Source of the DNA: Methanoculleus sediminis
Lineage (GTDB): Archaea > Halobacteriota > Methanomicrobia > Methanomicrobiales > Methanoculleaceae
Direction: 5' to 3'
DNA length: 64,000 bases
Assembly (NCBI RefSeq): GCF_001017125.1
Contig: NZ_JXOJ01000002.1
Location: forward strand, 807,017 to 871,016
Part shown: positions 3,163 to 62,262 of the stretch, piece by piece
Layout of the letters: each line of letters opens with the position of its first letter
Position numbering within the stretch: the stretch's first letter is position 1
The notes under the pieces: model-generated
What the model saw: only the letters and a program-made list of their open reading frames with translations
Databases searched by the model: none
What the model was told of the DNA's origin: nothing
Translations under genes and position numbers: made by a program

Positions 3163-4899
3163 ATGCGCTGCTCGATCTGCGAGAACCGATGCGCCGTCCC
3201 GCCCGGCGGCGTCGGGCGGTGCAGGATGTATACGAATGAGGGCGGAGCGATCGTCGAGCGGTTCCCCGACCGTTACATCGCGGTCATGCCGATCGCGATC
3301 GAGACGATGCCGATCTGCCACTACCACCCCCGCGGGACGTTCCTGCAGGCGAGCGGCATCGGGTGCACCTTCTCCTGCGGGGGATGCATATCCGAGACGA
3401 TCGCCCTCCACGCAGAGGCGGTCTCCGGGGCGCTCAGGCATATCCCGCCCGGCGCTCTGGTCAAGCGCGCCTTAAAAGAGGGGTGCCGGGGGATAGCGTT
3501 CTGCCTCAACGACCCGACCGCGATGCACCAGACCTTCCTCCGGGTGGCGCGGGCGGCGCACGACGCGGGCCTCCTCGTCGGGTGCGCGACGAACGGCTAC
3601 TACACGGAGGAGTCCCTCCGCGACCTCGCGCCCGTCGTCGACTTCGCGAACATCGGACTGAAGGGTGCATCCGATGCACGGTACCGCGCGTGCGGCGCGA
3701 TCTCGGCGGAACCGGCCTTCCGGACGGTGAAGACCCTTCACGAAGCAGGCGTCCACGTCGAGGTCTCCTGTATCCATTCCCGGGGGTGCGACGACGAGAT
3801 CCGGGCCGCGGCCGCCCGGGTCGCGGAGATCTCTCCCGACATCCCGTTCCTCGTCATGCGGTTCATCCCGTTCGGCGACGAACCGCCGGAGAGGGAACCG
3901 ACGATTGCGGAGTCGGAGCGGATCTGCGACGACCTGCGGCGGACGCTCCGCTACGTCTACCTCTTCAACTCGCCCGGAACCGGATACCTCGATACGGCGT
4001 GCCCGTCCTGCGGGAAGACCGTCGTCCGGCGGGAGTTCTTCGGGCCGATGGGAGCGCGGACGATCGCGATCCCGCCGGACGCCCGGTGCTCCTGCGGTTG
4101 TTCTCTCCCCGTGACCGGGAGGGTCGCGGAGACGCCCTACGCCGAGCCGGGGATGATGGGTGGCTACCGGTTCACCCGGGCGCTGGAGATGGTTCACGCC
4201 GTTCTGGTCTGCCTCGGCGTGGAGTCCGACGCCGACCTCGCCCGTATCTGGGCGGGGGTCATCCGGGACGACTACATCCGGGACCTCCATGGGAAGATCC
4301 AGTCAATAGACGGCTACCTCGATCTCGTCCGGGAACTCGGGGAGCGGGCCGGCCGCACCGGGGCGGCGGAGAGGCTGGCCGGCTACATCGGCGACCGGGT
4401 AACGGCGGTCTCGTCGGCGGTCGAGGGCTGCCGCCGGCCCCGGGTCTACTACTCGATGGGGACGCCGCTCTTTGCCCTGAACGCCGACCGGTTCGAGATG
4501 GACCTCGTGGAGGCGGCCGGCGGCGACCCCGTCAACCGCGGGATCGCCCGGGCCGGTAAACCGGGCGTCAACATAACGCCGGAGGAGTTTGCGGCGTTCA
4601 ACCCCGAGTACATCTTCGTGTCCGGGTTCCTCTCGGCGCCTGCCTCCGATTACATCGCGGCGTGCCGGAGGATGGGACTCTCCGCCGACGCCGTCGAGCG
4701 CGGCCGGGTTTACACCATGCCGCCGGGCTGGGACTTCGGCAACCCCCGCTGGGTGCTCGGCCTCTGTGCCATCGCACGGACTCTCCACCCGGAGCGGGCT
4801 GCCTTCGACCTTGCCGCGGAGCAGGACCGGTTCTACCGGACGTTCTATGGAACGGATGCGGCCGCGATCATGGGGAACCGGTCGTTCTATCGCCCATAG
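3163..4899 (+). CDS. Radical SAM protein fused to a FecB-type binding-protein lobe
   Basis: 578 residues from ATG at 3163, chosen because AAGGAG ends 8 bases upstream; a GTG at 3157 is also possible. Residues 1-30 carry CSICENRCAVPPGGVGRC. The radical SAM cluster motif CTFSCGGC (CxxxCxxC) follows at about 66-73, in a PflA/AmmeMemoRadiSam-like domain to about 260. A zinc-ribbon-like part (CPSCGK ... CSCGC) follows. From about residue 425 (RVYYSMGTPLFAL to RVYTMPPGWDFG) it matches the C-terminal lobe of FecB/BtuF binding proteins, including the one at 1429. There is no signal peptide, so this lobe is cytoplasmic. The fusion is unusual; the substrate is unknown. Confidence 0.85.
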   Translation: MRCSICENRCAVPPGGVGRCRMYTNEGGAIVERFPDRYIAVMPIAIETMPICHYHPRGTFLQASGIGCTFSCGGCISETIALHAEAVSGALRHIPPGALVKRALKEGCRGIAFCLNDPTAMHQTFLRVARAAHDAGLLVGCATNGYYTEESLRDLAPVVDFANIGLKGASDARYRACGAISAEPAFRTVKTLHEAGVHVEVSCIHSRGCDDEIRAAAARVAEISPDIPFLVMRFIPFGDEPPEREPTIAESERICDDLRRTLRYVYLFNSPGTGYLDTACPSCGKTVVRREFFGPMGARTIAIPPDARCSCGCSLPVTGRVAETPYAEPGMMGGYRFTRALEMVHAVLVCLGVESDADLARIWAGVIRDDYIRDLHGKIQSIDGYLDLVRELGERAGRTGAAERLAGYIGDRVTAVSSAVEGCRRPRVYYSMGTPLFALNADRFEMDLVEAAGGDPVNRGIARAGKPGVNITPEEFAAFNPEYIFVSGFLSAPASDYIAACRRMGLSADAVERGRVYTMPPGWDFGNPRWVLGLCAIARTLHPERAAFDLAAEQDRFYRTFYGTDAAAIMGNRSFYRP

Positions 4900-4926
4900 G
4901 GAGCGAAGAGAGCCGCCTTCGCGGCA

Positions 4927-5730
4927 TTACGCCTCCTCCCTCCCGCGGCAGCCGCACGGGCTCATCGGGATGCAGACCATCCGCTCCACCTCTTCGACGT
5001 AGCGGACACAGACGTCGATCCCGTAGGCCTCCCGCAGGTTCTCCTTCGTGATGACGTCCTCGGCCGGTCCCCGTGCGATCAGCCTGCCGTTCTCGAGGAT
5101 GGCGACCGTGTGCGAGAGCAGAAAACCGTGGTCCGGGAAGTGGGTGCTCATCAGGATGGCGATCCCGTCGGCGGCCAGCCGGTCGATCGTCGCGATCACC
5201 TTCATCTGGTTGCCGATATCGAGGTGCGACGTCGGTTCGTCGAGGATGAGCAGCGACGGCTCCTGGGCAAGAGCGCGGGCAATCATCACCATCTGCGACT
5301 CCCCGCCCGATATCTCGGAGATACACTTGTCCTGGAGGTGCGCTATCCCGATCCGCGCAAACGCCTCCTCCACCTTCTCGCAGTCCTCCTCCCCCGGGAC
5401 CGAGAAGGTCGGGATGTGGGGGGCTCTCCCCATGAGGGCGAAATCGAACGCCCTGAACGGAAAGACGGCGCGGTGCGTCTGGGGAACGTAGCCGATCTCG
5501 CGTGCGATCTCGTCGGGCCGCATGCCGGCGACCCGGCGGCCGTTGATCTCCACCTCCCCCTTCTGGAGCGTGAGGATGTTTAAGATGCACTTGATCAGGG
5601 TCGATTTTCCGGTCCCGTTCCTCCCGAGGAGGGAGAGGACCTCTCCTCTCCGGAGGGAGAGGGAGATCTCTTCGAACTGTTTTGTGATGCCGTCGTACGA
5701 GAACGAGGCGTTGTTGACGTTCAGGATCAT
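4927..5730 (-). CDS. ABC transporter ATPase (FecE/BtuD-type)
   Basis: 267 residues; the ATG at 5730 overlaps the permease stop (ATGA), so the two are translationally coupled. Walker A is GRNGTGKST, the Q-loop YVPQTH, the signature SGGESQMVMIARAL, Walker B LLILDEPTSHLD, and the switch His is in STHFPD. This is the cytoplasmic ATPase of an iron-siderophore, heme or cobalamin importer. The C-terminus ends in a short Cys/His-poor tail with CGCRGREEA. It is convergent with the radical SAM gene, with only 27 bases between stops. Confidence 0.92.
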   Translation of the reverse strand: MILNVNNASFSYDGITKQFEEISLSLRRGEVLSLLGRNGTGKSTLIKCILNILTLQKGEVEINGRRVAGMRPDEIAREIGYVPQTHRAVFPFRAFDFALMGRAPHIPTFSVPGEEDCEKVEEAFARIGIAHLQDKCISEISGGESQMVMIARALAQEPSLLILDEPTSHLDIGNQMKVIATIDRLAADGIAILMSTHFPDHGFLLSHTVAILENGRLIARGPAEDVITKENLREAYGIDVCVRYVEEVERMVCIPMSPCGCRGREEA

Positions 5731-53649: not shown

Positions 53650-54183
53650 TCACCCCTGGACGGGGGCGGCAGTCAGGCGGAGAGCGGCGTAGAGTATGGT
53701 TGCGGCGAGCACGCACTCGAGGTAGAACCCGAAGACCCCGAAGGCGGAGAAGAGCAGGCTATACGCGGGGGTGCCCGCCGTGAGGGGGAGGGCGCTCATG
53801 ATCCCGTCGAAGAGCCACCCGAATACCGGCACGCTGTCCGCGACGAGCGGGGGGGCGTCGCCCCGTTCCCACTGGCCCGGGTTTATCAGGAGGGCGAAGA
53901 CGAACGGAACTGAGGCTGCAACGGCGACGAGCATCGCCTGCCGCTCTCTCCGGACCGGGACGGCGCCCGGGATGAGCGGGAGGGGCGTCGCGGCTCCCGC
54001 GACCGCAAGGGTGACCATCACGAGGACGAAGACGGGGAGGACGAACGGTGGCGCCGGTCCGACGATCCCGGAGACGGTTCTGGCGGTACCCGCCCAGATC
54101 ACGCATGCGACGACCGCAACGAGCGGGGGGATGGCCGGCGAGAACCGGCTCCGGGGGGGCGAGGCGATGATCTTACCTGACAT
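53650..54183 (-). CDS. Lineage-specific five-helix membrane protein
   Basis: 177 residues from ATG 54183; the frame is open to 54270. Five hydrophobic segments: PPLVAVVACVIWAGTARTV, PPFVLPVFVLVMVTLAVAGA, AMLVAVAASVPFVFALLI, a loop with VFGWLFDGIMSALPL, and LLFSAFGVFGFYLECVLAATILY. No family recognised. Preceded 68 bases upstream by one copy of the 36-bp promoter-like motif (54251-54286), as are four other genes in this island. Confidence 0.65.
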   Translation of the reverse strand: MSGKIIASPPRSRFSPAIPPLVAVVACVIWAGTARTVSGIVGPAPPFVLPVFVLVMVTLAVAGAATPLPLIPGAVPVRRERQAMLVAVAASVPFVFALLINPGQWERGDAPPLVADSVPVFGWLFDGIMSALPLTAGTPAYSLLFSAFGVFGFYLECVLAATILYAALRLTAAPVQG

Positions 54184-54250: not shown

Positions 54251-54286
54251 CTATAAACGATTTCTGTCACGATCGTCTACACGTCG
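54251..54286 (-). promoter_or_regulatory. Island motif copy A (36 bp), upstream of the 54183 gene
   Basis: On the minus strand: CGACGTGTAGA, then CGATCGT, then GACAGAAATCGTTTATAG. The 3' half ends in a TATA-like GTTTATAG placed 68 bases before the ATG at 54183. The same arrangement with exactly 7 bases between halves occurs at 55198, 56624, 57945 and 59777. Confidence 0.75.
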
Positions 54287-54365
54287 GGGCGCTTCAATCC
54301 GTTTTGTTCCCGGAAAGGCGGTAGAAGGGGTATCTCGATGCGGCTCTTCCACCGCGGCAGAACGG

Positions 54366-54566
54366 TCAGTCCGGCTGCTTCTCCCGGCACCGTTTGCTCA
54401 CGATCTGCACGATGAGGCTGCCAAACAGCAGGATGAAGAACAGGTACCGGGCAAGGGCGCCGGGCCGGCCGTGCAGGATTATATCCTGGTAGTAGTTGAC
54501 CGCGAGGACAGCTACGGCAAGGGCGAGGAGCAGTTTCCACAGGAGCGACAGGTAGTTGCAGTTCAT
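54366..54566 (-). CDS. Small two-helix membrane protein
   Basis: 66 residues from ATG 54566, 12 bases after the upstream gene stop, so probably in one transcript with it. Two hydrophobic segments (LLWKLLLALAVAVLAVNYYQ and ARYLFFILLFGSLIVQIVS) and a basic/Cys tail (KRCREKQPD). No family recognised. Confidence 0.6.
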   Translation of the reverse strand: MNCNYLSLLWKLLLALAVAVLAVNYYQDIILHGRPGALARYLFFILLFGSLIVQIVSKRCREKQPD

Positions 54567-54578
54567 GTTCGCCGCCGG

Positions 54579-55127
54579 TTATACGATTCCCACCGCGCGA
54601 TGGAGGTAGTACGCGAGCACCACGCCTGTCGCAAGAGCGACGAAGACGGCCCGGTCCTTCGACTTCTCGTGGAAAATCCATACGCCGAAGTAGGTCGAGA
54701 GGCAGAACCAGGCGAGGAGCAGCAGGCCGGCAAACGGAACCTCCAGGAGGACCACCCAGGAGAAGAGGATGAGCGGCGAGAGGGCGTAGACCGCCGATTT
54801 CATCGTCTGCTCGAACTCCCGGTGGACGTCGACGAAGAGCAGGAAGAAGTGCTCGACGAGGCTGACGGCGAGGAGGGCGACGGCTCCGGTTATCAGGCCC
54901 TGCGTCAGGGTGACAAGGGTGCCTGCCGCGATAAACCAGATCCGGTGCGTTCCGTCAATCTTCGCCGCCTCTCCCGTAAGGAGGGGCAGTACCATGAATA
55001 GGACCGATGCGGCGGCGACGATCGCGAAGTAGAATATGAGGTCGTCGCGCAGCGGTTTTTCGTTGAGTCTCTGGAAGACCCGCCGGGGGCCGGTGATGAT
55101 TGTTTCCGGTGATATATCTCCTGGCAT
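54579..55127 (-). CDS. Membrane protein, Yip1-like
   Basis: 182 residues from ATG 55127 (GGGAAGAAGAG upstream); the frame continues to 55151. Five helices in a Yip1-like order: LIFYFAIVAAASVLFMVLPLL, IWFIAAGTLVTLTQGLITGAVALLAV, then a FFLLFVDVHREFEQTMKSAVYALSP loop and two more. The assignment to Yip1 is weak. First gene of an operon with the 66-residue protein; motif copy B lies 71 bases upstream. Confidence 0.65.
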   Translation of the reverse strand: MPGDISPETIITGPRRVFQRLNEKPLRDDLIFYFAIVAAASVLFMVLPLLTGEAAKIDGTHRIWFIAAGTLVTLTQGLITGAVALLAVSLVEHFFLLFVDVHREFEQTMKSAVYALSPLILFSWVVLLEVPFAGLLLLAWFCLSTYFGVWIFHEKSKDRAVFVALATGVVLAYYLHRAVGIV

Positions 55128-55197
55128 GCTCTTCTTCCCTGGACGGCGCACCTGCCTGTCTGGTTCCGGTATCGATGAAGGAGAAATCGATGTACTC

Positions 55198-55233
55198 CTA
55201 TAAACGTTCTCTGTCTGAATCGTCTACACGTCG
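55198..55233 (-). promoter_or_regulatory. Island motif copy B (36 bp), upstream of the 55127 gene
   Basis: On the minus strand: CGACGTGTAGA, CGATTCA, GACAGAGAACGTTTATAG. Only 2 of the last 18 bases differ from copy A; distance to the ATG is 71 bases. The remaining bases to 55379 show no gene. Confidence 0.75.
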
Positions 55234-55379
55234 GGTCACGGTTGGTTGAAGAGAGGCAGCCGGTGCCCGTTATCGCTCTGACACTATGCAGGGCCGGGAG
55301 GTGGTATAGCCCCCATTCATCCTTCGTCCGGGTGAGGGGAGCTTGTTTTTACCGATGGGCGGCCTGAAAATCGTTGGTA

Positions 55380-55868
55380 TCAGCGGTGGAGTACTGCCGG
55401 GAGGTTCAATCGCCTCTCATGGACGGTCGATGTGAGCTCGAACCGCCCCTCTCCGGGTTCAAACGGGGAGCAGGATACAGTCAACGTTCCGGAGTTGATC
55501 CCTTCTGATTCCTGAGTTGTGCTGTGAGGTATCCCCGCAGGGTCCCAGACCGTTAGGGTGAAGGTGGCTTTCTTTGCGCTGCTTGGCTTATTTTCTTGGT
55601 CACTTCTCCACGAGACAGTGAAGGTGCTTGCTTCCATTCCCGTCTCGATCAAGGAGATGATGTTCGAAGAAGTTGTGTTTGCCCCGAAGTCGGCCGACCC
55701 CTCGCCAAGGAAGAAAACACCACGTGAGTTACTGTCCTGAAAGACGATTTTGCCGCTGGACGTAGTGGTATTAACGGCAACATCCTCCTGGGCGGATGAT
55801 ATCACATATGCCAGAGCACCAACAAGACCTATCATCAGGATGATGATGCACGCTATTTTCCTGTTCAA
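55380..55868 (-). CDS. Exported protein, paralogue of the 56436 gene
   Basis: 162 residues. Signal peptide or anchor (ACIIILMIGLVGALAYVISSA), then a beta-rich domain: FTVSWRSDQENKPSSAKKATFTLTVWDPAGIPHSTTQESEG and SGTLTVSCSPFEPGEGRFELTSTV. It lines up with the 56436 protein (RLTVYDALGAAHTTQKR and SGTISVSFNSQGSGDAQYEL), so the two arose by duplication. Likely secreted or membrane-anchored outside. A TATA-like TTTTTAAAG lies just before the start. No family recognised. Confidence 0.65.
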   Translation of the reverse strand: MNRKIACIIILMIGLVGALAYVISSAQEDVAVNTTTSSGKIVFQDSNSRGVFFLGEGSADFGANTTSSNIISLIETGMEASTFTVSWRSDQENKPSSAKKATFTLTVWDPAGIPHSTTQESEGINSGTLTVSCSPFEPGEGRFELTSTVHERRLNLPAVLHR

Positions 55869-55917
55869 AAGGTCATCACTCCGCTTTAAAAATAGTGCAT
55901 CCTAGAGATGTACCTGT

Positions 55918-56436
55918 TTAGACATAATCGAGGTCGCCAATGTAGGGGCCACCTATCGCCGTCGTCGTATCGAACCAGTTGTGCGTCTCGCACCAGAGTT
56001 CGTACTGGGCATCGCCGCTGCCCTGTGAATTGAAGCTCACGCTGATGGTGCCGCTGGTCGCCCAGTCGACCCGCTTTTGGGTAGTGTGCGCCGCGCCCAG
56101 AGCATCATAGACCGTCAGGCGGTAGATCGCTCCCTGACCGTCGTTGTCCACATCGTTAACATTACTGTATGTTGCTGTGAAGGTGTTCTGCCCGGCTGGA
56201 GCAGTGACTGATCCCACACCGGCCACGCTTGCTGTGTCGCCGTCGCCATCTGTCGACATGCTTCCCAGGTGTATTGTGGCCCGAGCCCCGGCATCATCTG
56301 TGCCCACCATAGGGGGTATTTCTCCGACTTCGATGTTCTCCTGATCAGCCTGGGCTGCAGAAGCAACCCCGGCAGATACTGATACAAATAGCATCAGTAC
56401 TGCCAAAACCGGCAGAAATCTGTTTCGGCTTTCCAT
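55918..56436 (-). CDS. Secreted beta-rich protein
   Basis: 172 residues with a clear signal peptide ending ASA (FLPVLAVLMLFVSVSAGVASA), then an acidic Thr/Gly-rich domain (IHLGSMSTDGDGDTASVAG, NTFTATYSNVNDVDNDGQG) and the part shared with the neighbour (YRLTVYDALGAAHTTQKR, SGTISVSFNSQGSG). A good ribosome site (GGAGG) and a TATA-like ACTTATAGG at about 56480 precede it. Motif copy E lies further up at 56624. Unknown function; surface role likely. Confidence 0.7.
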   Translation of the reverse strand: MESRNRFLPVLAVLMLFVSVSAGVASAAQADQENIEVGEIPPMVGTDDAGARATIHLGSMSTDGDGDTASVAGVGSVTAPAGQNTFTATYSNVNDVDNDGQGAIYRLTVYDALGAAHTTQKRVDWATSGTISVSFNSQGSGDAQYELWCETHNWFDTTTAIGGPYIGDLDYV

Positions 56437-56783
56437 TTTCTGTTTCCTCCATTATTACAGCACCGGAGGAGAGAGAACGTACCTATAAGTAAAGGTAATA
56501 ACAACCCTCCTTTTGCCTCCGGGCGTGCGGGGTCCATCATCCTGTCGTGAACCGCGGATGTGTGGCCCCGCGACTCATGCGAATGCCCGATTCCGGCACC
56601 CGCACTGCAACCTCAACCTCGGGCTATTTACCTTTTCTCTCACTTCTCTCTACATGTTCGCTGTCTTCTTCGGAAAGCGGAAGGCTGGATACATCCTGCA
56701 CGGCCCACGGAACCGGAGAGGGTTCCGGCCGGAACCGGGAGTGCCTGGGCTCCATACTCGGTCCTGCTCCCCTCTGGGCGTGC
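56437..56783. other. Gap before the secreted-protein gene, with island motif
   Basis: No convincing gene in 347 bases. It holds the proximal promoter of the 56436 gene (about 56470-56490) and island motif copy E (56624-56659). The right end is the stop side of the ABC-2 permease gene. Confidence 0.55.
56624..56659 (-). promoter_or_regulatory. Island motif copy E (36 bp), most diverged
   Basis: On the minus strand: GAACATGTAGA, GAGAAGT, GAGAGAAAAGGTAAATAG. The 3' half matches copy C in all but two positions and the spacing is the same as in the others. It is 188 bases before the ATG at 56436, further than in copies A, B and D. Confidence 0.6.
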
Positions 56784-57746
56784 TTACCGGATATCCATCC
56801 GCATGAACCGCGTGTACGCGACGGCGAAGAAGGCGACGGGGTAGATGGTCAGGGCCGCAACGCTCGACCATATCTCGCCGAGCGTATCTTCAAGGGTTGC
56901 CCCCGGGGAGTTGCTGATCCCCTGGATGAGGGCGTTGACGGCCATCTGCGGCGAGAAGAGGTTTGCAGCGCTCTCGATCATCTTCATCTGGTCGAGGTAC
57001 GCCGTAATCTCCACCTGGTAACCTTCCGATTGGGTATCCCCGCCGTATGCGGCGGGGTCGGGCTTTTCCATCATGAGGGCCGTGCCGATATTCGCGGTGG
57101 CGAAGGGGGCCAGGAAGACGAGGAGGACGAAGACAACCACCGAGAGGAGCAGGGCGCTGCCGCTCTCCCGGCAGAGGGTGGAGAGGGCGAGCGCGATGGA
57201 GAAGAACGTCACGAGGAAGAGGAGGGTGACGCCGGCATAGGTCAGGATCATCCACAGATCGCCGGAGGCGGGCACGATCGAGAAGACGAGGAGCAGCGCG
57301 GTGGATATAGCGAGCACGCTCCCGACGACGAGGGCCAGCAGCGCAACGCCCCCGAGCGCCTTGCCGTTGATGATCTCGTCCCGGTAGACCGGGTGGGAGA
57401 GCAGGCTTTTGAGCGACCGGGACTCCTTCTCCTTCGAGACCAGGTCGAACCCGAGCGCAAGCGCAAGGAGGCCCCCGTAGGAGACCAGCGTCCGGAACAC
57501 CGAGGAGTAGATGCCCTCGACCGGCGGTTTTGCGGGCATCATCCCGGCCGGTCCGTCATTCTGGTTATCCATCGTCGCCAGTTGCTGGGCATACCGGTCC
57601 AGGTCTCTCTCGTAGCTCCCGACCCCGCTGTAGGTTCCCACCAGGGCGATGGCGAGGAACAGGGCGAGGATCACCAGGAACCGCCAACCCGTGATCTGGT
57701 CGGCAAACTCTTTTTGGGCCACGGTGAAGACCCGTTCCGCCGTCAT
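56784..57746 (-). CDS. ABC-2 type permease without a nearby ATPase
   Basis: 320 residues, NosY/ABC-2 type: an N-terminal QKEFADQITGWRFLVILALFLAIALVG, a long outer loop (about 40-85), then LALALGFDLVSKEKESRSLKSLLSHPVYRDEIINGK, the mark of this permease group, and four more helices. The final TYPVAFFAVAYTRFMRMDI is usual. No ATPase lies within this island, so the partner is elsewhere or the protein works with another ABC subunit. Motif copy C lies 199 bases upstream. Confidence 0.85.
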   Translation of the reverse strand: MTAERVFTVAQKEFADQITGWRFLVILALFLAIALVGTYSGVGSYERDLDRYAQQLATMDNQNDGPAGMMPAKPPVEGIYSSVFRTLVSYGGLLALALGFDLVSKEKESRSLKSLLSHPVYRDEIINGKALGGVALLALVVGSVLAISTALLLVFSIVPASGDLWMILTYAGVTLLFLVTFFSIALALSTLCRESGSALLLSVVVFVLLVFLAPFATANIGTALMMEKPDPAAYGGDTQSEGYQVEITAYLDQMKMIESAANLFSPQMAVNALIQGISNSPGATLEDTLGEIWSSVAALTIYPVAFFAVAYTRFMRMDIR

Positions 57747-58117
57747 GTGTTATCACCGGTCAGTGTACATACATCTATCTTCATGCTCGTTCTCCGTCCG
57801 TGGTCGCAAGAGTACCGCAGGTCCGTGACTATACGCGGTATCGCCCCTTAAGTGACAACCGAGGTTTTTCCGCCGCCCGGAACAGGCAAGGGTTAATCAG
57901 ATGCACTTCCACGGGCGTTGCCGTCTTGAGACTGGATCGTTACTCCATATACCTTTTCTCTCACATTCCTCTACACGTCGGGGCGTGAGAGGAGTGGATC
58001 CGACCAGTGGCCGTGGTAAACCGACGATACTCTGCACCGGTCACTTTTCGGAAACTTCAAGCCCGGCCGGTCCCATACTGACTTTAACCACGCCGGTTCC
58101 ATCGGCCCGGAACTACC
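57747..58117. other. Gap between divergent genes, with island motif C
   Basis: No gene seen in 371 bases between the permease (minus) and the 58118 gene (plus). It contains motif copy C (57945-57980), oriented towards the permease, and a TATA-like CTTTAACC near 58083 that may serve the plus-strand gene. Confidence 0.55.
57945..57980 (-). promoter_or_regulatory. Island motif copy C (36 bp), upstream of the ABC-2 permease
   Basis: On the minus strand: CGACGTGTAGA, GGAATGT, GAGAGAAAAGGTATATGG. The first half is identical to A, B and D; the second is near-identical to E. The TATA-like GTATATGG is 199 bases before the ATG at 57746. Confidence 0.7.
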
Positions 58118-58801
58118 ATGAGACGACCGATCCTTGCCGTTATCGTCGGAGTAATAACTGTCTACGCCTGCATGCACTTCTTCGTCCTGCCGGAGGCCCC
58201 GGACGTCACCCGTATCGAGAATATCACCCATCTTGAGTCCCCGGCATACCATCCGGCCATCCTGGACCTCTGGGAGATCGCCGTCGATAGCACCGGCGTC
58301 GAGAACGAGTCGGCGAGACTGCTGCGACTGGAGACCAACATCGCCGGGGACGGCGCGATTCGGGTGATATGGTTCTACTTCTACGGTGATAAGGACGGTG
58401 AACAGCACGGCTACGAGGCGTATGTGGGGCCGGGCGGAATGGTATCGGCTAAATCGCAGAAGTTCAATTTTTCCGTGCAGGGGGTGCACCCCCTCGAACT
58501 CTTGCGGGAGGTCGACGCTATCGCCCTGGAGGATATTCCCTCCCGGGACCGGGGTATGAGGCTTCTTGTGAGCGTGAACGCGTACGGGGACCACTACAAC
58601 GAGACCCGGGGAAGGCTCTACGAGGTCTCGGATGGAATATTCCGCCCGGTGAAAGAAGTGACGTTCGGCCCGGACGCGCGCTGGTACACCATCACGATCA
58701 CTCCCCACCGGAGCCCGGGATCCCCGCCATCTCCAGAAGAGGTTCTTATTGCGTTCACCCGGCAGGATCTCGCAGCGGCCGAGTCCGTAGCCTACGGATA
58801 G
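58118..58801 (+). CDS. Exported or anchored hypothetical protein
   Basis: 227 residues: an N-terminal helix (RPILAVIVGVITVYACMHFF) acting as signal or anchor, then an outer domain with IAGDGAIRVIWFYFYGDKDGEQHGYEAYVG and RGMRLLVSVNAYGDHYNETRG. No catalytic motif seen and no family recognised. Only plus-strand gene in the left part of this island. Confidence 0.65.
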   Translation: MRRPILAVIVGVITVYACMHFFVLPEAPDVTRIENITHLESPAYHPAILDLWEIAVDSTGVENESARLLRLETNIAGDGAIRVIWFYFYGDKDGEQHGYEAYVGPGGMVSAKSQKFNFSVQGVHPLELLREVDAIALEDIPSRDRGMRLLVSVNAYGDHYNETRGRLYEVSDGIFRPVKEVTFGPDARWYTITITPHRSPGSPPSPEEVLIAFTRQDLAAAESVAYG

Positions 58802-58859
58802 GTGAGCGTCGAGAACCGGGACTCGTTCATCGTCTCCGGCCCAACCGCCCCCGGGTGAC

Positions 58860-59594
58860 CTAACCGGTTGCGTCTGCGCCCCTGTCCGCCCGGGATACGA
58901 TATCCCGCCGGGGGAAATAGCGCACCATCCTCCCGTCCCTCTCGCTCCGTACGGCACCGTCCCGGATGAGCAGCGCCATATGCCAGGTCACTGATGCGCC
59001 GGAGATCCCGAGCGCGGATACGACCTCTTTTCGCGCCATTCCCGGGTCCTGTGCAAGGAGATCGAGGATCTGCTTTCGTGTCCCGTTGATGGGATAGCCT
59101 TCTCCCTCACGGGCCGTCCTGCCGTTCGTGTAATACCGTAACTGCCCGTGATCGCGCTCAGCTACTATCTGTCCGGTCTCGCAGAGGGTTGCAAGGTGGT
59201 ACCGGAGCGTTCCAATGTTAACCCCCAGCCTGCGTGAGAGGGAAGCGTGGTTGATCCCGGGGTTCTCCCGGATGCAGAGGTATGCTGCACGGCGGGTGTC
59301 GTGTTCAAGAACGTTCTTTCTGGAGATCCTCCTCTGGCCAAGAATAAGCCATACGGTTACTGATATGAGGAACTGGACCGGGAGGAAGAGCAGGGGTGCG
59401 GTCATGAAGACGAAGTCGAGCAGGAGCAGTTTGGGCGGCACGTTCCAGATATATAGTGGGGCCGGATCGTCCGGTATCGTCTCCGGAAACTCCCCCTCAC
59501 TTGATATGGTGCCAGTAGCGCTCCCCGGGGCGATTATAAGCAGGAGGGCGATAAGGAGCAGTGCGCCCCTTGCGAGAGGGAGTTGATGCCGCAT
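58860..59594 (-). CDS. Membrane-anchored regulator with two winged-helix domains
   Basis: 244 residues. A signal-like helix (ALLLIALLLIIAPGSATG), a short outer part, a second helix (FVFMTAPLLFLPVQFLISVTVWLIL), then two winged-helix domains: NPGINHASLSRRLGVNIGTLRYHLATLCETGQI and DPGMARKEVVSALGISGASVTWHMALLIRDGAV. The DNA-binding part is thus in the cytoplasm, anchored to the membrane, and the outer loop may sense the surface. Common layout in Methanomicrobiales. A candidate controller of the five island motifs, by location only. Its own promoter lacks the motif. Confidence 0.8.
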   Translation of the reverse strand: MRHQLPLARGALLLIALLLIIAPGSATGTISSEGEFPETIPDDPAPLYIWNVPPKLLLLDFVFMTAPLLFLPVQFLISVTVWLILGQRRISRKNVLEHDTRRAAYLCIRENPGINHASLSRRLGVNIGTLRYHLATLCETGQIVAERDHGQLRYYTNGRTAREGEGYPINGTRKQILDLLAQDPGMARKEVVSALGISGASVTWHMALLIRDGAVRSERDGRMVRYFPRRDIVSRADRGADATG

Positions 59595-59776
59595 TAAAAA
59601 GATCAGGTGACCGGGAGTATAAAAACGGTGCTATTCTGTTATCCCCCCATCGCACACCTCTGCGTGCCTTCGGGTAGCCGGTCCCCTCCACAGTCTGGGC
59701 CCGGTATCGACCGATGCAGCAAACGTCCCTGATTGACTGCGGCGAATTTTCCGGAGCAAAACGAACGGATCCGGCT

Positions 59777-59812
59777 CGACGTGTAGAGGGGCTGGACAGA
59801 AATCGTTTATAG
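59777..59812 (+). promoter_or_regulatory. Island motif copy D (36 bp), upstream of the 59880 gene
   Basis: On the plus strand: CGACGTGTAGA, GGGGCTG, GACAGAAATCGTTTATAG. The last 18 bases equal copy A exactly, though the two are 5.5 kb apart and in opposite directions. The end is 68 bases before the ATG at 59880, as in copy A. Confidence 0.75.
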
Positions 59813-59879
59813 GGGAACGTTGAGTTCTCATGCATAGATCCCGGAAGACGGGCCCACCCGGCCGGGCGGTGGTGAGGAG

Positions 59880-60551
59880 ATGGGCGGGCGACGTAACAAT
59901 GCCAAAAAAACCGTACTGAACCTATTGATAGCGGTCACCATCCTTGCCGTGGTGGTCTTCCTGCTCTTCCTTGGTCCTGCATTCGTCTCGACGACCATGC
60001 CGAACGACTCCTATATGATCGAGATCACCGGTCTCTCCGGTCTTGCCGTGAACGGCACCGCCACGGTCATGATCCCGGTCCCGGCGAACGCGAAGGGCGA
60101 GCTGGTGATCTTCGAGGCGTCCAGCGCTCGCCAGCCCGCCGGGTGGCGGACGGCGATCCGGGAGACGCAGTACGGGAAGATGCTCGCGTTCACGACGACG
60201 GAGGACTACGCGCAGGATATCTTCGTACCATCCGGCGAGTTCGAGACGAAGGAAGAGCCGCGGCTGCTCGTGCCGGTCCTCGCAACCCCGGACAACGCGA
60301 GCGTCGCCGAGTTCACCCGGAGCTCGGGCGGTACCTACACCACGGTCGGCTTTCTCGACGGCTTCGTCCCGCCGGAGAACGCCACATCGATCTCGTTCGA
60401 CCTTGAGTACCAGGGCGGCGGCGGTGTGAAACATCTGATCAAAGAGAATATCTGGACGGCGACGGTGAATACGGCTGTTCCGAGCACAACGTCGGGATTT
60501 GTTCCGGTTCCGGCAGGATACCATGTTATTGCCGGGGGTATCAATCTATAA
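59880..60551 (+). CDS. Anchored exported hypothetical protein
   Basis: 223 residues with a single N-terminal helix (VLNLLIAVTILAVVVFLLFLG) and an outer beta-rich domain: YMIEITGLSGLAVNGTATVMIPVPANAKGELVIF, then LLVPVLATPDNASVAEF. Several N-x-S/T sites fit a glycosylated surface protein. The stop overlaps the start of the next gene (ATG at 60551), so the two are cotranscribed from motif D. No family recognised. Confidence 0.7.
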   Translation: MGGRRNNAKKTVLNLLIAVTILAVVVFLLFLGPAFVSTTMPNDSYMIEITGLSGLAVNGTATVMIPVPANAKGELVIFEASSARQPAGWRTAIRETQYGKMLAFTTTEDYAQDIFVPSGEFETKEEPRLLVPVLATPDNASVAEFTRSSGGTYTTVGFLDGFVPPENATSISFDLEYQGGGGVKHLIKENIWTATVNTAVPSTTSGFVPVPAGYHVIAGGINL

Positions 60552-61756
60552 TGACCGACTCCGGGAGAGAAGATCTCCATCGATTGAAACGTATGCTCGT
60601 TGACGGCAAAACTCATGCAGCCCGTAAAATGGCGATATCTCTTGCTCTTTTATCCCTCATCGTCCTCACTGCCGTATCGGGGTGCCTCTCGATCGACGCT
60701 GTCGCCGACCGTCATGCTCTCTCCGTCACCCGAACCGACGCCGCCGGTACCGAGATCTGGCACACCGCTTTTGATGGAGGGGGCGACGAATACGGCACCG
60801 TCCTGTTGCCGGTTTCGGACGGCGGCCTGCTTGTCGGGGGGTCGGTCAAACAATCTCCGGGAAGCGAAGAGCACGCCCTGCTGCTCAAGATCGCGGAGGA
60901 CGGCCGGATCGAGTGAAACCGGTCGTTCCCGACACGGTATGGCGTTGAGGCAGTCGTCTCCCACCCTGACGGCAGTTTCACCGCAGGGACGGGTGACGGG
61001 TCTCTCTTCCGGGTGGCCGGCGACGGGACACCCGTCTGGAGCAGCCCGGTTTCGGAGTCCGTGCCTGGAGTCTCCGGTCTGCCGGATGGAGGTATCATGG
61101 CTGCAGGGAGCCAGCACGAGAGGGATGTCTGGGTGGCGGTCGTGAACGATACCGGGTCGCTGCTCCGGGAAGAGACCTACCCGGATCTCGGACGGGGGCG
61201 GGCTCTCGAGGTCGCTTCGGCGTCGGACGGGGGGTGCATCGTTGCAGGGACGACGGATAGCCACCCGCTCTGGGTGATGCGGCTCGATGGAGAGGGCAAC
61301 GTCATCTGGACCCGCACCTTCGAGGAAGGCCCTGAGTTTATCGGAGTCATGCTTCACCATGTATATTCGGTGCGAGAGAAGCCGGACGGTAGCGTGGAAC
61401 TGCTCTATAAGGTCGGCCGGGCCCTGAAAGGAGAGGAAGCCGGAGGATCGGTCACGGTCGACCGAACCCTCGCCCGGGACGGCTCTGATGTGAGCGTAAC
61501 GGAGTTCTATATGCCCTGCCCGGTTGTCCGGGCCTCCGGCGGCGGTTACGCCTGTGCCTCCCTCGAGAGTTCCGAGGGCGACGGTTACACCATGGGGAAC
61601 CATCTCGGGTCGCCGATTCACGTGATGAAATGTGACGATCGCGGTGAGATTGTCCGGGTCAGTACCGGCACGGAGGCGGAGGTGGATATCGTCACGGATA
61701 TCGTGCAGACCCCGGATGGGGGGTTTGCGATTCTTGGTGGGTCTACGAAGACCTGA
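60551..61756 (+). pseudogene. Beta-propeller-like lipoprotein gene with in-frame TGA
   Basis: The frame at 60551 reads a lipoprotein-like start (LALLSLIVLTAVSGCLSI) and propeller-type blades with GGGDEYGTVLLPVSDGGLLVGGS, then stops at TGA 60914-60916 (DGRIE-stop-NRSF). The same frame continues without break to 61756 with more blades (SHPDGSFTAGTGDGSLFRVAG, SASDGGCIVAGTTDSHPL, DGEGNVIWTRTF, TPDGGFAILGGSTKT). The text at the stop matches the IWTRTF type, so the stop is most simply TGG to TGA at a Trp. Either a recent nonsense mutation, readthrough, or a sequencing error. Confidence 0.8.
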
Positions 61757-61842: not shown

Positions 61843-62262
61843 ATGGCGGCGAGACATGAGCACCTGTTCGAAGTGTTTGATCGCCTGATCGCCATCAAGA
61901 ACGAATGCTCCTCCGAGATCTTCTCTGAATGCGGGCTTGCCGACGTGACGGTGAAGCAGGTCGCCTACCTGAAGACGATCGACGAGCACGGCGACGTGAC
62001 GTTCAGCGGTCTTGCCGAGATCACCAGGAACTCGAAACCCACCGTGACGGAGATGGTTAATCGGTTCGTCCGGATGGAGTGCGCCTACCGCCAGAAGTCC
62101 CCCGACGACGGGCGGGTCACCTACATCCGGCTGACCGAGAAGGGCCGGATGCTGGCAAACGCCGAGCGGAACGCGCTCCACCGGATGGTCGAGAGGATGG
62201 TGCGGACGCTCGATGAGAACGAAGTGGATCTTCTGGTGGAGATCTTGAAGAAGGTCGGATGA
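61843..62262 (+). CDS. MarR-family transcriptional regulator
   Basis: 139 residues: KQVAYLKTIDEHGDVTFSGLAEITRNSKPTVTEMVNRFVRM is the helix-turn-helix, followed by the wing QKSPDDGRVTYIRLTEKGR and a C-terminal dimer helix. MarR proteins bind as dimers to short palindromes. Both this gene and the downstream lon carry the same 19-bp site, so it probably represses itself and lon until a ligand or stress signal releases it. A run of seven T follows its stop. Confidence 0.9.
   Translation: MAARHEHLFEVFDRLIAIKNECSSEIFSECGLADVTVKQVAYLKTIDEHGDVTFSGLAEITRNSKPTVTEMVNRFVRMECAYRQKSPDDGRVTYIRLTEKGRMLANAERNALHRMVERMVRTLDENEVDLLVEILKKVG

Follow-up and report, generated by a model that had tools for sequence, protein, structure and literature searches.

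The locus lies within a window of 64 kb, the whole stretch of DNA that was analysed, which corresponds to C8:807017-871016 in the 2.49 Mb genome of Methanoculleus sediminis (G000). The elements and genes concerned are listed in Table 1. In a preliminary description, five copies of a 36-bp element had been placed here, four on the minus strand and one on the plus strand, and all five were found. It was also confirmed that the first 11 bases (CGACGTGTAGA) are exact in four copies and that the second half is identical at 18/18 positions between the copies at 54251 and 59777. The claim of constant spacing was borne out even in the copy at 56624, which is the most divergent of the five and is conserved at the orthologous position in further genomes of Methanoculleus. 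The full pattern had 0 occurrences in 100 dinucleotide shuffles of the 64-kb window. The 11-mer alone, when two mismatches were allowed, was no more frequent than chance; therefore the signal is the whole arrangement. Further along the plus strand, a single in-frame TGA (60914-60916) interrupts one reading frame at 60551-61756, such that mechanical ORFs were called at 60551-60916 and 61013-61756 in the same frame; either the gene is broken or the TGA is an error of sequencing.

Table 1. Elements (UAS-BRE-TATA) and genes of the locus, in window coordinates.
Feature	Position	Strand	Sequence or product	Context
Element	54251..54286	minus	CGACGTGTAGA-CGATCGT-GACAGAAATCGTTTATAG	5' of gene 53650-54183
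Element	55198..55233	minus	CGACGTGTAGA-CGATTCA-GACAGAGAACGTTTATAG	5' of gene 54579-55127
Element	56624..56659	minus	GAACATGTAGA-GAGAAGT-GAGAGAAAAGGTAAATAG	5' of gene 55918-56436
Element	57945..57980	minus	CGACGTGTAGA-GGAATGT-GAGAGAAAAGGTATATGG	5' of gene 56784-57746
Element	59777..59812	plus	CGACGTGTAGA-GGGGCTG-GACAGAAATCGTTTATAG	divergent to 58860, 5' of gene 59880-60551
Gene	53650..54183	minus	177-aa multi-pass membrane protein, no Pfam family	first gene downstream of the 54251 element
Gene	54579..55127	minus	182-aa Yip1-domain membrane protein (PF04893)	
Gene	55380-55835		151-aa product	related to and following 55918-56436
Gene	55918..56436	minus	172-aa secreted protein, signal peptide, no Pfam family	
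Gene	56784..57746	minus	320-aa ABC-2 type permease (PF12679)	
Gene (58860)	58860..59594	minus	244-aa candidate regulator: three N-terminal hydrophobic segments, then two winged helices	
Gene	59880..60551	plus	223-aa protein, N-terminal membrane anchor or signal, no Pfam family	

In an ungapped alignment of 101 sites from the genus, the element read CGACGTGTAGA-cG..cGt-GACAGAAAtcGTTTATAG, with a further conserved stretch, A.cGTtGA..TCTC, before and around the expected start. AGAAA sits at the BRE position and is followed, after 3 nt, by TTTATA at the TATA position; a conserved site directly 5' of BRE and TATA at fixed spacing, which is the layout of EarA-type promoters, was found across the 101 sites. 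The operator, GTGTAGA-N7-NNN, precedes an unusually conserved core (AGAAANSGTTTATA) at fixed spacing, and both abuts and overlaps the BRE. Ungapped conservation in Methanoculleus runs approximately 40 bp beyond the TATA box. The seven bases between the two halves, previously called variable, co-vary by locus in relatives; together with the next three bases they are best seen as a specificity region. Archaeal TATA boxes are centred 26/27 bp upstream of the transcript start (PMC5512572), and from the position of the TATA box in the 59777 copy a start is therefore expected at about 59835, 45 nt before gene 59880.

A scan of the host genome and its relatives, suggested earlier as a check, identified 11 host sites with up to 3 mismatches, against 0 for the reversed-pattern control, and approximately 20 when the core pattern or a matrix was used. 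The second half of the element (SACAGAAANSGTWTATRG) was almost never seen without the upstream half, and the two were therefore interpreted as one element, rather than a common promoter. Sites occurred in 31 of 35 genomes of the genus, including all 24 complete ones, with controls at 0. No exact match was found among viral contigs, and no description of the motif or regulon was found in the open-access literature.

The elements had been said to point at genes for membrane or exported proteins, and this proved correct across the host genome: by a simple hydrophobicity test, with regulon start codons picked by eye, an N-terminal hydrophobic segment was present in 18 of 20 downstream genes, compared with 8 of 39 background ORFs from elsewhere in the window (Fisher p = 3e-7). 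Besides the ABC-2 permease and the Yip1-domain protein, the host regulon includes an ATPase gene at another site, lipoproteins, PGF-CTERM and carboxypeptidase-regulatory-like surface proteins and a subtilase look-alike, while several products are secreted and belong to no Pfam family. Element-driven genes in other genera again encode mostly signal-peptide proteins. The evidence supports a promoter element that defines a regulon of membrane and exported proteins. A 227-aa exported protein without a Pfam family, encoded on the plus strand at 58118-58801, has no element of its own and is paralogous to the product of the element-driven gene after C8:871817 (L042). At L070 and L068 of G158, promoters and leaders are nearly identical between several different secreted proteins, whose signal peptides are also similar (MNIHKTVFVLLALLLAGMAIVPMV); this suggests duplication of promoter and leader in an exoprotein family.

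The hydrophobic segments of 58860 start near residues 4, 54 and 71. Its Pfam matches were PF24266 (HTH_HVO_0163_N), PF13412 and PF12840, the first above the gathering threshold (68.6 bits, cut-off 31); among paralogs, L069 and L172 scored 32.3 and 53.1 bits against PF24266. The layout of membrane segments followed by winged helices is conserved in 15 paralogs, and 58860 combines a DNA-binding domain with a transmembrane region on one polypeptide, as transmembrane transcription regulators (TTRs) do. An AlphaFold prediction for 58860, made with 8 close orthologs, was too weak for a fold search (mean pLDDT 61, pTM 0.32); in this low-confidence model two winged helices could be seen, along with a signal helix and a long membrane region made of helices. 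Orthologs with 73–100% identity to 58860 were present in 19 of the 35 genus genomes and missing in 16. Near-perfect or perfect sites were nonetheless kept in G003, G005, G010, G012 and G025, which have no close ortholog; G003 has eight sites at no more than 1 mismatch and only distant paralogs (33–39% identity), while paralogs in other ortholog-less genomes of the genus reach 46–48% identity to 58860. Therefore, the paralogs must share or divide the sites. The earlier proposal of 58860 as controller survives in that its family is the best candidate, but 58860 as the sole regulator is ruled out, given the species that keep perfect sites without it. Winged-helix membrane proteins of this family occur beyond the order; the link to the promoter was examined in Methanomicrobiales.

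Homologs of 58860 were present in many motif loci from other genera, where they had not been used to select the loci. Within the genus, the same four genomes (G019, G020, G022 and G023) had neither a strict-motif site nor a match to the regulator family; this coincident absence is suggestive of linkage, and is graded so because the assemblies are 80–87% complete. The reverse test began with 63 loci (228 kb) fetched by the regulator alone from 22 genomes of other genera, five of which had been picked for having motif matches. A scoring matrix built from Methanoculleus sites only produced 35 matches of at least 10 bits in 26 of the 63 loci, and no match of at least 0 bits when 398 kb of random DNA, drawn from seven of these genomes, was scored as a control. 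Many of the matches came from genomes that were not preselected for the motif (G084, G087, G105, G194 and others), and when regulator loci were later drawn from 11 previously unused genomes, 8 of these had a match. There was no match at 10 bits in 37 of the 63 loci; inspection by eye revealed locus-specific variants in several of these, but not in others.

Regulator operons are often headed by two back-to-back elements, and inverted operator repeats matching at 17 or more of 22 positions were found in 18 of 40 operons, compared with 0 of 200 control windows. Operators vary between operons (for example, GTAGACGAATGCGTTAGAAA, GTTAAGTTTTGACCGACAAA, GTAAGGTACTCGGTGAGAAA and TTTCGATGATTCGGTCACAA) while the core is constant. 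The average match was 15.1/18 within a locus and 10.3/18 between loci, and 0 of 5000 re-pairings were as good, with the operators hand-extracted from loci that already had an inverted repeat, which favours within-locus similarity. A different operator (TTAAGTTTTGACCGACAAA), joined to an unchanged core, occurs 13 times in G158 and 16 times in G185; its sites cluster at the regulator genes of these two genomes, in which at least two other operator groups coexist with it. Comparison of these sequences supports not one promoter class but a family of pairs, each of a promoter and a regulator, whose operators differ. Of the 'new promoter class with upstream activator site' initially envisaged, the promoter element stands, but the single class does not, nor is the layout alone new, because a site just 5' of BRE/TATA is the standard arrangement for archaeal activators (PMC5512572).

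A small gene for a secreted PPC-like protein lay directly 5' of the regulator gene in 38 of the 63 loci, and in 0 cases in the control. Its product scored at best 23.0 bits against PF04151 and did not reach the cut-off of 25.9, several members being unmatched, and it is therefore called PPC-like only. The host 58860 has no PPC-like partner, while relatives such as L182 have one. Among the regulators preceded by such a gene are those of L182 (PPC-like gene at 4493-4957), L069, L107 and L172. The PPC-like protein is a candidate sensor partner of the membrane regulator, and the position of its gene is an indirect hint that the regulator may respond to an extracytoplasmic signal.

The best reading of these data, with a probability of about 0.72, is that the genes of the secretome are controlled by one-component regulators anchored in the membrane, each of which has its cognate UAS-BRE-TATA promoter. 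The regulator would start with a signal-anchor, continue through a short loop on the outside and a transmembrane hairpin, and end in two cytoplasmic winged helices; the operator would be read by members of this family, whose paralogs would carry cognate operators before their own operons. An extracytoplasmic signal, perhaps received via the PPC-like protein, would change the anchored regulator, which in its altered state would recruit TFB/TBP to a weak BRE/TATA and so turn on genes for exported and membrane proteins. The promoter layout, the content of the regulon, its linkage to the family and the matched divergent operators come from the sequences themselves; direct binding, signalling across the membrane and the involvement of the PPC-like protein are inferred. 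Autoregulation of the regulator operons is likely, because a second element with a matching operator lies divergent to the operon. The proposal that the regulators activate, as opposed to repress, is based on the analogy with EarA (PMC5512572) and ArnR (PMC6396743, PMC13286277).

The regulator family might instead repress, with the anchored protein covering the BRE and blocking TFB until a signal releases it. The operator does overlap the BRE, AGAAA, and lies right against the TATA region, divergent autoregulated arrangements are also typical of repressors, and archaeal repressors often cover BRE/TATA (PMC5512572). However, the conserved block reaches well 5' of the BRE at fixed spacing, as it does for the activator EarA (PMC5512572), and ArnR, the only characterised membrane-bound archaeal regulator named in the cited papers, is an activator (PMC13286277, PMC6396743); repression was considered the less likely of the two modes. 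It is improbable that an alternative TFB/TBP pair reads the promoter class, with the regulator genes being mere members of the regulon. A general factor predicts one sequence, whereas there are several operators per genome, clustered by regulator, and the operator varies by locus yet matches within one regulator operon while the core is constant. The unusual conservation of that core, and the presence of the element before regulator operons, would agree with such a pair, but the alternative TFB raised in the preliminary description is unnecessary to explain the data.

The MarR-family gene of the cluster (61843-62262) was rejected as regulator by its distribution, and a role for it is very improbable. 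It is conserved within the cluster and is found also in G003, which lacks a 58860 ortholog, but four genomes that carry it (G022, G023, G081 and G134) show neither a strict-motif site nor a match to the regulator family, and G013 and G032, which have both sites and regulator family, lack it. Fixed spacing around divergent filler, zero counts for reversed controls, positions 5' of exported-protein genes and conservation across genera beside one protein family all argue against reading the copies as a dispersed repeat, or as promoter segments that were duplicated, with no regulation in common; although promoter duplication happens, as the near-identical promoters and 5' leaders within G158 show, this explanation was given the least credence of all.

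The abundance of membrane-bound regulators in Methanomicrobia (PMC10269533) and the existence of archaeal activators with upstream sites are already known. In the available passages of a TTR census, Methanomicrobia are enriched in these regulators, which share with 58860 a predicted DNA-binding domain and a transmembrane region; those passages give counts and domains, and methanogen targets and promoter elements are absent from them (PMC10269533). EarA, the archaellum activator of Methanococcus maripaludis, has sites immediately 5' of the BRE and is bypassed by a better BRE (PMC5512572). Its likeness to the present case is that of a euryarchaeal winged-helix activator with short consensus sites directly before BRE/TATA (PMC5512572), but EarA acts on the archaellum operon, whereas the Methanoculleus family consists of membrane-anchored double winged-helix proteins with many secretome targets and matched promoter variants. 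The comparison is one of layout, and the 58860 family is not filed as EarA. ArnR and ArnR1 of Sulfolobus acidocaldarius are paralogous membrane-bound one-component regulators of surface structures (PMC6396743, PMC13286277); the helix-turn-helix of ArnR is N-terminal (PMC13286277), while in 58860 the N-terminal portion is the membrane part, ahead of two winged helices. Both cases concern paralogous, membrane-bound archaeal one-component regulators. To our knowledge, no matching of multiple regulators to promoters has been recognised for ArnR. Haloferax HVO_0163 shares the domain PF24266 (HTH_HVO_0163_N) with 58860; the one open-access paper found to name it together with archaea is an acetylome study, and no description of a function was found.

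In bacteria, ECF sigma/anti-sigma and FecI-FecR type systems provide many paralogous envelope-sensing modules per genome, which have their own promoters and control exported proteins and themselves. The likeness lies in the way of working and not in homology; there is no sigma factor here, the Methanoculleus system being a membrane-anchored winged-helix protein with a TATA/BRE promoter. It is quite possible, though we would stop just short of expecting it, that the order carries arrays of mutually orthogonal modules, several per genome, each consisting of a secreted PPC-like sensor, an anchored double winged-helix regulator and a cognate UAS-BRE-TATA promoter, and each controlling its own set of exported proteins and itself; such modules, having arisen independently on the TATA/TFB machinery, would be the archaeal counterpart to ECF sigma/anti-sigma systems. 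In the open-access literature, no archaeal genome was found described as having several regulators matched to promoters of their own. The operator is known for few archaeal regulators, and the regulators of Methanomicrobiales, the methanogens of biogas, rumen and sediment, are barely described. The analysis provides a testable regulon of approximately 20 genes, most of which encode exported or membrane proteins, together with a family of candidate regulators whose operators are matched and a set of natural promoters, possibly orthogonal, that might serve as tools. It also offers a direct handle on control of the methanogen surface, where the pairs most likely let cells turn on surface proteins when outside signals arrive.

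Some minor features were observed around the predicted start. A hairpin in the 5' leader was considered suggestive, with per-site folding z-scores averaging only -0.37. Position-specific stems were about twice as frequent as in shuffles in related site sets; in the host genome there were 6 compared with 3.0 expected, which was not significant. A stem after the predicted start recurs across lineages, as GATACCG...CGGTATC (also GGATACC..GGTATCC) in Methanoculleus and GGACAGC...GCTGTCC in G158; such short stems, statistically modest, were noted at L068-L070, L075 and L077 (G158 and G185) and at Methanoculleus sites. Between the TATA box and the start, ACGTYGA is conserved in Methanoculleus (for example, at 59817-59823 of the window); it resembles the reverse complement of the upstream CRACGT, and is possibly an inverted half-site, such that the two would flank the TATA box.
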